Program-made: the position numbers and the translations under genes | Notes under the pieces: generated by a model | What the model saw: only the letters and a program-made list of their open reading frames with translations | Told to the model about the DNA's origin: nothing | Databases searched by the model: none | Shown: positions 30,451 to 32,963 of the stretch, one piece after another | Layout of the letters: every line of letters starts with the position of its first letter | Numbering within the stretch: position 1 is the stretch's first letter | Virus record (IMG/VR): IMGVR_UViG_3300021356_000037 | Coordinates: 1-45,402 of that record | Origin: a virus | DNA length: 45,402 nt | Strand: one strand, 5' to 3'

Positions 30451-30615
30451 ATGAACAATTATTCTGCTGACCTTTACAAAGAAATCCTAGAGTGTTACGA
30501 TTATGAGACCAGAAACCCGACAATCTATGGAAATGTTATTCGCGGCGAAGTGGAATTTGCCCAAAGCAGCGAAGAATGCAGGTCTAACCAACAAGGAGAT
30601 GAAAATCACCTTTAA
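30451..30615 (+). CDS. Possible ORF overlapping the next, 54 aa
   Basis: Frame from ATG 30451: MNNYSADLYKEILECYDYET to a stop at 30615. There is no ribosome site and it overlaps the next ORF for most of its length. The start is plausible in context, but the composition after residue 20 is less protein-like than the alternative frame. Confidence 0.35.
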   Translation: MNNYSADLYKEILECYDYETRNPTIYGNVIRGEVEFAQSSEECRSNQQGDENHL

Positions 30616-30655
30616 CGAATATTGCAGATTTCATCCTTCTACCTGGGAAGGTTGA
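30503..30655 (+). CDS. Small HTH-like ORF, 50 aa
   Basis: Frame from ATG 30503: MRPETRQSMEMLFAAKWNLP, then KAAKNAGLTNKEMKITFNEY and CRFHPSTWEG. The AAKNAGLTNKEMKITF part resembles a helix-turn-helix, and the overall composition looks like a genuine conserved small phage protein. It ends six bases before tRNA-Leu. Confidence 0.55.
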   Translation: MRPETRQSMEMLFAAKWNLPKAAKNAGLTNKEMKITFNEYCRFHPSTWEG

Positions 30656-30661
30656 TTTTTT

Positions 30662-30745
30662 GGGAGTGTGGCGGAATCGGTAGACGCACCAGACTTAAAA
30701 TCTGTTGAAGGCAACTTCGTGGGGGTTCAAGTCCCCCCTCTCCTA
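30662..30745 (+). tRNA. tRNA-Leu (anticodon TAA)
   Basis: A class II tRNA with a long variable arm. The GGGAGTG acceptor pairs with the CTCTCCT side (one T-T mismatch). The anticodon loop CTTAAAA gives TAA, and the T-arm is a perfect GGGGG-TTCAAGT-CCCCC. No CCA is encoded; the host must add it. It reads UUA/UUG, which are common in this AT-rich phage. Confidence 0.92.
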
Positions 30746-30761
30746 CTACATAAAGTAAAAA

Positions 30762-31805
30762 ATGAAACTACTAGAACGAATTGAAGAACTTTCTAAAATA
30801 GGATTAACTGAAACTGGCATCTGTCGTTCTGCGGGTAGTAAAGAAGATCGTGATGGAAAGAATCTTGTAGTTTCTTGGATGTTAGAAGATGGTCTAGAAG
30901 TTAGACGAGACAATTATGGAAATATTATTGGAAGAATGCCTGGTTCTGGTCCACCAATTGTAACAGGATCTCACACAGATACTGTAGCAACTGCTGGTAA
31001 ATATGATGGTGTTCTTGGTGTTCTAGCAGGATTAGAAGCAGCAAGAGAGTTGAAAGGTAAAATTTCTAGTCCATTGGAAGTTGTAATCTTCCATGACGAA
31101 GAAAATACAATGTCTGGTTCTATTGGATATTGCTCCAAAAAACCAAATATCAAAGCATTTCTAGAACTTCACGTAGAGCAAGGTCCAGTACTTGATTTTC
31201 AACAGTTAGATGTTGGTGTTGTTGAGGGTATCGTTGGTCAAAGAAGGTGTTCGGTATCTGTATTTGGTCAAGAGAACCATGCAGGAACCACACCAATGAA
31301 TATGAGAAATGATGCTCTGGTCAAAACAGCAGAGATCATTACTTATATCAATCAAAAAGCACTAGAATGTGATGGATTGGTTGCAACTGTTGGTGTATTG
31401 GATGTATTTCCAAATGCTTTTAGTGTTGTTCCTGGTCAAGTTGATTTCACCTTGCAAGTTCGAGATTTGGATTCTAAAGTTATGGAGGAATTTGTTGAGA
31501 ACGTATGTAAGGAATTTGATCTTAGATATGAAATCGCACACCAATCAGAACCAGCATTATGTGATAATACTATCAAGATGTGCATTTCCGAATCTTGTGA
31601 TGAGTTGAATTTAAAGAGTATATGGATGCCTTCTAGGGCATCACATGATGCTCAGAACTTTACTTTCTGTCCTATGGGTATGATCTTTGTCCCTTCTATT
31701 GGAGGTATTAGTCATTCACCAAAAGAGGACACAACTGATGAAATGTGTTATAATGGAGTCAACGTCCTTATCAATACTATTCTAAAGGTTGATAAAGCGT
31801 CCTAA
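30762..31805 (+). CDS. Hydantoinase/carbamoylase-type amidase (M20 family)
   Basis: A 347-residue zinc amidase of the N-carbamoyl-amino-acid hydrolase / allantoate amidohydrolase family, which release ammonia or CO2 from carbamoyl or ureido compounds. Expected metal ligands are visible: H71 in GSHTDTV, D82 in AGKYDGVLGVLAG, E113/E114 in FHDEEN, H137 in LELHVEQGPVLD and H318 in GGISHSPKED; the lid region has GQENHAGTTPMNMRNDA. It is shorter than the usual ~410 residues, mainly between E114 and H137. It sits between two tRNAs like acquired cargo and may feed nitrogen to the infected cell. The substrate is not predictable from sequence. Confidence 0.9.
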   Translation: MKLLERIEELSKIGLTETGICRSAGSKEDRDGKNLVVSWMLEDGLEVRRDNYGNIIGRMPGSGPPIVTGSHTDTVATAGKYDGVLGVLAGLEAARELKGKISSPLEVVIFHDEENTMSGSIGYCSKKPNIKAFLELHVEQGPVLDFQQLDVGVVEGIVGQRRCSVSVFGQENHAGTTPMNMRNDALVKTAEIITYINQKALECDGLVATVGVLDVFPNAFSVVPGQVDFTLQVRDLDSKVMEEFVENVCKEFDLRYEIAHQSEPALCDNTIKMCISESCDELNLKSIWMPSRASHDAQNFTFCPMGMIFVPSIGGISHSPKEDTTDEMCYNGVNVLINTILKVDKAS

Positions 31806-31808
31806 ATA
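31801..31808 (+). promoter_or_regulatory. Candidate late promoter
   Basis: CCTAAATA overlapping the amidase stop codon, 16 bases before the next ATG. Confidence 0.35.
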
Positions 31809-31824
31809 TTCAAAAAGGTATCAT

Positions 31825-32100
31825 ATGAAATACCGTATCGACACTAAGTATTGTTGGTATAACAATAAGTCAGTTATTGTTCTGATGTATTTCATTCAAG
31901 GGACACCATTTACTTTTGATGATTTACCTCATCAGTCTCTACATTTAACAGAAATTATAGAGGCAGCAAATGAAGAAAGATCTTGGGAACCAGAAGAAAT
32001 CTATAAGGCTTCTTCATATCTAATGGAAGAGGGTTGTCATCCTCTGATGTTTGATGTAGAATTAGAGAATCCAGAGCTCTTACCTGTTGATCAGGAATAA
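31825..32100 (+). CDS. Hypothetical protein, 91 aa
   Basis: ATG 31825 with AAAAAGG six bases upstream; a TTG at 31789 is in frame but would overlap the amidase. The sequence begins KYRIDTKYCWYNNKSVIVLM, then a helical acidic part (IIEAANEERSWEPEEIYKA). No family is recognised. It ends one base before tRNA-Thr. Confidence 0.6.
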   Translation: MKYRIDTKYCWYNNKSVIVLMYFIQGTPFTFDDLPHQSLHLTEIIEAANEERSWEPEEIYKASSYLMEEGCHPLMFDVELENPELLPVDQE

Positions 32101-32101
32101 T

Positions 32102-32173
32102 GCCTCTGTAGCACAGTGGTAGTGCAGTGCTTTTGTAAAGCAAAGGTCATCGGTTCAAATCCGTTCGGAGGCT
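32102..32173 (+). tRNA. tRNA-Thr (anticodon TGT)
   Basis: The acceptor GCCTCTG pairs with CGGAGGC; D-loop AGCACAGTGGTAGTGC, anticodon loop TTTGTAA (anticodon TGT), T-loop TTCAAAT. Discriminator T, no encoded CCA. One T-T mismatch is present in the T-stem. Only one base separates it from the upstream ORF and three from the next ATG. Confidence 0.92.
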
Positions 32174-32176
32174 TAA

Positions 32177-32359
32177 ATGAAAATCAATCTCTGGTATAGT
32201 AAGTCTATGGCCCAATGGCGTTGGACTTTGGTTGAAGAGTGGAGAAATGGAGTAAGTCACAGAGAGCAGCATTCGGGTCAACAACCTATGCTTCGCGATG
32301 CTATGAATGACGTAGCTAATACTGTAGAATATATCTTGGAACAGAAACAAGATAAGTAA
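32177..32359 (+). CDS. Hypothetical protein, 60 aa
   Basis: The ATG lies three bases after the tRNA-Thr 3' end. The protein starts MKINLWYSKSMAQWRWTLVE and ends with a helix RDAMNDVANTVEYILEQ. It looks like a conserved small cyanophage protein, from memory; no function. There is no ribosome site outside the tRNA, so its mRNA would need tRNA processing or leaderless-like initiation. Confidence 0.6.
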   Translation: MKINLWYSKSMAQWRWTLVEEWRNGVSHREQHSGQQPMLRDAMNDVANTVEYILEQKQDK

Positions 32360-32369
32360 TATTACTTAA

Positions 32370-32963
32370 ATGAAGAGCGAATTTTACATAGATAGAGTTG
32401 ATAAGGAAAGTTGCAAAAATCTACTTTACAACTATCATTATCTAAAAGACGAATCTAAGGATTTCAAATCTGGGTATAATTATGGACTTTTCAAGCATAC
32501 TGACTGGGAATGCCCTCTTAGAATTGGCGGGTGCCTTGGTGTTTGCATTTTTACTGGGCTCCCAGTTCCAGAAATAGCAAAAGGTGCCTTTGGTCTGGAA
32601 CGTGATCAACAGGAAGGTTTATTTGAACTTTCTAGATTGTGTATTGACCCAGATGTTCAAAAAGAAGAATATAACATTACCTCTTGGTTCGTCAGTCGTT
32701 GTATAAAGAGGTTTCGGAAAGATGCAAATGTTCGCGCTATTCTTAGTTATGCTGACTCTGCTCACCATAGCGGAATCATTTACCGTGCGTGCAATTTTAA
32801 GTATTATGGGTTGACAGACGCCAAAAAAGACTTTTATTATGCTGATGGAACAAAGCATTCTCGTGGTTCTGTGAAGGGTTCTGATGGGGAATGGCGTGAT
32901 AGAACTCGCAAGCATCGATATTTGATGGTCTTTGATAAGCAAATGAATGTACTATGGGGATAA
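32370..32963 (+). CDS. Mom-like DNA modification / GNAT-fold protein
   Basis: A 197-residue protein resembling phage Mu Mom and related GNAT-fold proteins. The signature region is FELSRLCIDPDVQKEEYNIT, SWFVSRCIKRFRKDANVRAI, LSYADSAHHSGIIYRACNFK and YYGLTDAKKDFYYADGTKHS. Mu Mom modifies adenine to protect phage DNA from restriction. No Mom partner (Com) is seen nearby. Its place in the tRNA-associated accessory region fits a defence-evasion role. The match is by pattern, so another acyl-transferase-like role is possible. Confidence 0.65.
   Translation: MKSEFYIDRVDKESCKNLLYNYHYLKDESKDFKSGYNYGLFKHTDWECPLRIGGCLGVCIFTGLPVPEIAKGAFGLERDQQEGLFELSRLCIDPDVQKEEYNITSWFVSRCIKRFRKDANVRAILSYADSAHHSGIIYRACNFKYYGLTDAKKDFYYADGTKHSRGSVKGSDGEWRDRTRKHRYLMVFDKQMNVLWG

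Follow-up and report, generated by a model that had tools for sequence, protein, structure and literature searches.

A gene for an amidase, lodged between two tRNA genes of a viral genome, raises the question of what such an enzyme could do in an infected cell and of how the virus came by it. The DNA in question is the IMG/VR virus record IMGVR_UViG_3300021356_000037, which was analysed over its entire length of 45,402 bases, hereafter the window. Given the presence of psbA, thyX, phoH and T4-like tail and replication genes, and matches of its sequence to many Synechococcus myophages, the window can be recognized as a fragment of a T4-like cyanophage. A truncation of psbA at its left edge was considered and rejected, as the gene runs off the contig. 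The amidase ORF starts 15 bases past the end of tRNA-Leu(UAA) and is the first of two genes between the tRNAs; the second encodes a phrog_4134 protein, and it is this gene, not the amidase, that adjoins tRNA-Thr(UGU) (Table 1). The sequence CTAAATA, which we take to be a motif resembling cyanophage late promoters, occurs 23-31 bases upstream of phrog_4134 in the window, S-SM2 and Bellamy (window 31802-31808; L022 about 4399; L023 about 3796), overlapping the amidase stop codon in the window, where its overall frequency is not above chance. Directly downstream of tRNA-Thr, at 32370-32963, lies a gene for a Mom-like protein (PF25680, 3.5e-22; Mom-like DNA modification protein phrog_1384). The modification made by Mom is the addition of a carbamoylmethyl group; a tie between the amidase and such a modification was rejected, because of all the viral amidases only that of the window has the Mom-like gene nearby.

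Table 1. Features of the amidase locus in window coordinates
Feature	Position	Strand	Basis and remarks
tRNA-Leu(UAA), anticodon taa, intact; left border of variable slot	30662..30746	+	ARAGORN; Rfam tRNA 55 bits
Compact hydantoinase/carbamoylase-family amidase, 347 aa	30762..31805	+	TIGR01879 313 bits; AlphaFold model; structural matches; dN/dS
H71 codon, metal ligand (E. coli AllC H81)	30972..30974	+	invariant
D82 codon, bridging metal ligand (AllC D92)	31005..31007	+	invariant
E113-E114 codons, general base and metal ligand (AllC E126-E127)	31098..31103	+	invariant
Shortened E114-H137 connection, residues 115-136; bacterial relatives have about 34-41 residues more	31104..31169	+	segment lengths; model confidence about 97 across junction
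H137 codon, metal ligand in ELHVEQG motif (AllC H190)	31170..31172	+	invariant
S221 codon, virus-specific; Asn in 88/91 bacterial relatives (= AllC N275)	31422..31424	+	alignment
R234 codon, substrate carboxylate-binding Arg	31461..31463	+	invariant; = Arg291 of RrCbAA
R292-A293-S294 codons, virus-specific SRASHD loop (bacteria SGAGHD)	31635..31643	+	alignment
H318 codon, metal ligand (AllC H382)	31713..31715	+	invariant
phrog_4134 protein, 91 aa	31825..32100	+	PHROG match; same gene in S-SM2 and Bellamy
tRNA-Thr(UGU), anticodon tgt, intact	32102..32173	+	ARAGORN; Rfam 64 bits

A first-pass annotation of this DNA had described an amidase of the carbamoylase/allantoate amidohydrolase family between tRNA-Leu and tRNA-Thr, about 60 residues shorter than usual and with all its metal-ligand motifs, and the description holds in each of these respects. 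Both tRNAs are found by ARAGORN and Rfam, and the protein scores 313.3 bits against the TIGR01879 model (313.1 bits in a genome-level search), whose cut-off is 204; it also matches Pfam M20 and has no match among the PHROG families. The same TIGR01879 model matches all 11 of the viral members tested. While the top NCBIfam score comes from an "allantoate amidohydrolase" subfamily, every equivalog model scores under its own cut-off, including those for AllC (TIGR03176, 233.5 bits vs 597.75) and for the N-carbamyl-L-glutamate amidohydrolase ErtE (NF058540, the third-best model, 304.2 bits vs 520), such scores being lowered by the deletion in the viral protein. Bacterial relatives mostly have about 400-420 residues, and the viral amidase is 40-65 residues shorter than most of them. 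One loss lies between E114 and H137, a stretch of 24 residues in the window and 24-26 in the viruses vs 58-65 in bacteria, of which a five-residue part right after the Glu pair is also missing from the Gemmatimonadota relatives. A second block is lost from the dimerisation domain, where 30 residues in viruses stand against 35-39 in bacteria. This shortening is common to the whole virus clade; it is real and specific, and does not represent damage.

The residues expected of an active enzyme are complete, and the gene is intact. H71, D82, E113, E114, H137, Q140, H173, R234, H295 and H318, among them both the carboxylate-binding Arg (R234) and the catalytic His (H173) of the dimerisation domain, align with their counterparts in E. 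coli AllC and are invariant across 91 bacterial and 50 viral alignment rows, the latter including repeat entries of the same contigs. An AlphaFold model of the amidase has a mean pLDDT of 97.2 and a pTM of 0.92, with no weak stretch. In VIA-align comparisons it superposes over 347 residues on 5thw (Z 45.3, rmsd 1.7 A), over all 347 on 4wjb (1.6 A) and on AllC 1z2l (Z 41.7, 1.7 A), and over 346 on 3n5f (Z 43.7, 2.2 A) and on yeast beta-alanine synthase (1.6 A). Family members thus score Z 41-45, whereas M20 enzymes outside the carbamoylase family all fall below 30. Comparison of the window gene with nine other viral copies gave dN/dS values of 0.10-0.23, indicative of purifying selection, with dS near saturation for the more distant viral pairs and not estimable for S-B68. 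The first-pass annotation had allowed that the loss between E114 and H137 might have destroyed the geometry of the active site; because of the invariant residues, the confident full-length fold and the low dN/dS, that objection fails on the predicted model, which keeps the full fold.

Against this conserved background, all or nearly all viral rows carry a changed residue at three positions that hardly vary among bacteria, namely N to S221, G to R292 and G to S294. The position of AllC N275 is Ser in all viral copies, R292 is found in 50 of the 50 viral rows and in none of the 91 bacterial ones, and S294 in 49 of 50 and 1 of 91, respectively. S221 lies 13 residues ahead of the carboxylate Arg R234, while R292 and S294 fall in the position of the SGAGHD loop; going by the structures of yeast beta-alanine synthase and AllC, we take all three to line the carboxylate pocket. 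Hence, the virus proteins lack both the pocket Asn and the SGAGHD loop of the AllC type, having S221 and SRASHD instead. The viral SRASHD shares its Arg with the SRAYHD of the plant ureidoglycolate amidohydrolase (UAH), with Ser in place of Tyr. Because three near-constant pocket positions are altered, classical substrates may not fit the viral enzymes, and given these changes the specific substrate is not predictable.

To place the viral gene, we considered its distribution along with its phylogeny. Searches with a single-protein query and with an alignment query recovered 19 and 28 viral contigs with the amidase, respectively, in overlapping sets in which some contigs are near-identical. The compact form is thus present in about 28 other viral contigs and in the isolate Synechococcus phage S-B68, the only cyanophage with a match among annotated phage records, and every contig that spans the region has it. 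Matches of 29-36% in Listeria, Enterococcus and Salmonella "phage" records, which are unannotated, are probably to host genes or host DNA. The viral amidase occupies at least three genomic contexts: the slot from tRNA-Leu to the tail fibre, seen in the window and most contigs; a replication cluster beside the denV, gp45 clamp and gp44 clamp-loader genes, which in one contig scanned (L018) also includes an AdoMet decarboxylase gene; and, in S-B68, a site between mazG and a LOG-family gene. In two lineages, the amidase is followed, directly or one gene on, by genes resembling 2OG-Fe(II) oxygenases, which belong to two distinct types (L002 6080-6769, L013 6359-7000).

In trees built with the best 80 bacterial hits of a motif-based scan and leaving out the plant AtUAH, the virus proteins form a single, long-stemmed clade with support of 100/100, for which no bacterium stands out as the donor. 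The sister group of this clade, recovered with moderate support, includes the Gemmatimonadota relatives. The best bacterial relative is 38% identical (tblastn), no cyanobacterial homologues are among the best 80 genome hits, and the gene neighbours of the Gemmatimonadota and Chloroflexota relatives give no hint of a pathway. A recent transfer from a bacterium was therefore rejected: the deep virus-only clade has a long stem and lacks a close bacterial donor, tblastn having found no bacterial sequence closer than 38%. The earlier suggestion of acquisition needs to be modified to this extent: recent capture of a bacterial gene is at odds with the phylogeny, as well as with a shortening that is clade-wide.

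The same annotation had seen the amidase as cargo acquired at a tRNA hot spot, of which only a part can be retained. In S-SM2 and Bellamy the slot is empty of the amidase, tRNA-Leu being followed directly by phrog_4134 and tRNA-Thr, and relative to these phages the amidase of the window is an insertion. In or near the same slot other carriers have genes resembling HNH or NUMOD3-type endonucleases (L005 5622-5963, L008 6203-6514, L009 4229-4717, L057 4391-5002). In L003 and L004 the amidase frame enters tRNA-Leu (L004 2139-2225), so that the last residues of the protein (VAESVDAPDLKSVDR) are read from within the tRNA gene. Since it is empty in two phages, holds endonuclease-like genes in others and has an amidase frame running into tRNA-Leu, the slot beside tRNA-Leu is variable, and homing-type mobility or turnover of it is a reasonable guess. 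On the other side, tRNA-Thr adjoins phrog_4134, other lineages carry the amidase elsewhere, and the pattern of an integrase-type insertion is not seen: both tRNAs are intact, and neither direct repeats of at least 14 bases in 30600-32450 nor an integrase or att-type duplicated tRNA end was found.

A bacterial parallel to the compaction came from an actinobacterial hit (L089) that is short at the same place as the viral amidase. L089-like proteins are encoded by 15 of the 119 genomes of its class, and the nine distinct complete copies examined, eight compact (321-354 aa) and one full-length (L160, 387 aa), belong to the same clade. The compact ones (L089, L146-L158) lack the segment following the Glu pair that is also missing from the viral amidase, along with part of the dimerisation domain. 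Their clade is well supported and separate from the virus clade, and as the full-length L160 falls inside it, the loss is likely to have occurred within bacteria. A common origin of the viral and actinobacterial compact forms is accordingly unsupported, but it is not rejected when the two are held together (p-AU 0.196). Loss of the same segment is most simply explained as having occurred independently in viruses and actinobacteria. L089 is neighboured by genes for urate oxidase, HIUase, OHCU decarboxylase, a DUF3830 protein and an amidohydrolase; among its relatives, urate oxidase and DUF3830 recur in 10 of 11 extended regions, mostly in company with the HIUase and amidohydrolase genes, the eleventh being a short contig. 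The compact actinobacterial protein (L089, L146-L158, L164-L173) is probably the ureide amidohydrolase of a urate-catabolism cluster. As this compact branch adjoins urate oxidase, the viral shortening can be reconciled with a probable role as ureide hydrolase; by analogy, this supports the view that ureides can be broken down by a compact enzyme, and is not evidence for the use of allantoate by the viruses.

In the Rhizobium enzyme RrCbAA, Arg291 forms a salt bridge to the substrate carboxylate, and the carbamoyl group is held at the metals near Glu131, Gln196 and His385 (PMC10952681). All four residues have counterparts in the viral amidase, Arg291 corresponding to R234, and because of these counterparts the best inference is a reaction in which a ureido acid is hydrolysed to NH3, CO2 and an amine. 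By homology the protein would be a hinged homodimer, with two metal ions bound by H71, D82, E114, H137 and H318. E113 would act as the base and, together with the metals, attack the carbamoyl carbon of a ureido (N-carbamoyl) acid, while R234 would grip the substrate carboxylate and H173 and Q140 would help position the carbamoyl group. The expected products would be CO2, NH3 and a free amino (or ureido-amino) acid. We therefore consider it likely that these proteins are catalytically competent dinuclear-metal ureido-acid amidohydrolases of the hydantoinase/carbamoylase (M20-like) family, forming an old, compacted and virus-only branch with this predicted activity.

Judging from its residues, the viral amidase probably acts in the infected cell on a ureido compound, from which it would liberate ammonia, and nitrogen scavenging during infection is a plausible role. 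Nitrogen of a host ureido metabolite, conceivably a product of purine or pyrimidine breakdown or an N-carbamoyl amino acid, would thereby pass into the ammonium pool of the infected cyanobacterium. Since the annotation of S-B68, in the parts examined, lists no further gene for ureide or purine degradation, the virus appears to supply a lone step. More tentatively, and with the balance at present against it, we propose that the virus-only clade hydrolyses a ureido acid used by no characterised member of the family, with this specificity being set by the changes at 221, 292 and 294, and that cyanomyoviruses thereby open a host pool of nitrogen or nucleotide precursors beyond that reached by the known auxiliary metabolic genes.

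Narrower readings of the substrate can be weighed against the same evidence. It is possible, if doubtful, that the protein is specifically a ureide hydrolase of the allantoate or ureidoglycolate amidohydrolase type that draws on the purines broken down during infection. Its GQRR motif is that of E. coli AllC, but a GQRW motif is also seen in other family members, such as 5thw; the top-scoring subfamily is named for allantoate amidohydrolase, but the score against the AllC model itself is far under the cut-off. Similarly, R292 is common to the plant UAH, which however keeps the Asn that is replaced by Ser in every viral copy, and while the compact analogue of actinobacteria is found in clusters for urate catabolism, no purine-degradation genes were seen around the viral copies. 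The exclusively viral R292 and the replacement of the conserved Asn by S221 could also mean that the pocket accommodates a new substrate in the form of a larger or more acidic ureido acid, for instance N-carbamoyl-aspartate or N-carbamoyl-glutamate. The rank of the ErtE model points the same way, but its score remains below the cut-off, and breakdown of N-carbamoyl-aspartate would oppose the pyrimidine synthesis needed by a phage; hence, we regard this as unlikely.

Two further explanations would give the gene little or no part in nitrogen supply. The enzyme might merely clean up metabolites, removing N-carbamoyl amino acids that arise from the decay of cyanate or carbamoyl phosphate; this would suit a lone gene without pathway partners, yet it is a general inference only and we find it improbable. 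That the gene is a degraded or inactive passenger is suggested by its being shorter than its relatives, and is very hard to reconcile with the conservation of all catalytic residues, the low dN/dS and the high-confidence full fold.

The host-derived metabolic genes usually listed for cyanophages belong to photosynthesis and to carbon, phosphate and nucleotide metabolism. If the prediction of a ureido-acid amidohydrolase is true, a conserved virus-specific enzyme would add to these a way of turning organic nitrogen directly into ammonium while infection proceeds in waters poor in nitrogen. The compaction, which the actinobacterial urate clusters apparently show a second time, further suggests that a part of about 40 residues is dispensable in an industrially used enzyme family. 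The enzyme family is already known, as is its one GenBank annotation in S-B68, and to these the virus-only compact clade, with its altered pocket, adds a new form. A literature search, with most subscription papers outside its scope, returned no paper joining cyanophages or auxiliary metabolic genes with these enzyme names, and the cyanomyovirus comparison papers examined make no mention of the S-B68 hydrolase gene.

Among characterised enzymes, E. coli AllC (1z2l, 2imo) shares with the window protein all metal ligands and catalytic residues, the GQRR motif and a full-length superposition, but is 64 residues longer and has Asn and Gly where the virus has Ser and Arg. The L-N-carbamoylase of Geobacillus stearothermophilus (3n5f), the closest solved sequence, differs in its longer connection and dimerisation domain, in having GLI in place of GQR at Q160 and in its SGAAHD pocket loop. 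Arabidopsis (S)-ureidoglycolate amidohydrolase (AtUAH, 4pxb) has the pocket-loop Arg of the window protein, but is longer, keeps the conserved Asn and has Tyr in place of Ser294. The compact actinobacterial proteins show the same losses, but lie in a separate clade with the full-length L160 and are without the R292/S221 signature. The N-carbamoyl-L-amino acid hydrolase of S-B68 (MK016664, QBP06029), whose gene is not beside a tRNA, unlike that of the window, is 55% identical to the window protein and has both the same compact architecture and the pocket signature SRAxHDAQN.
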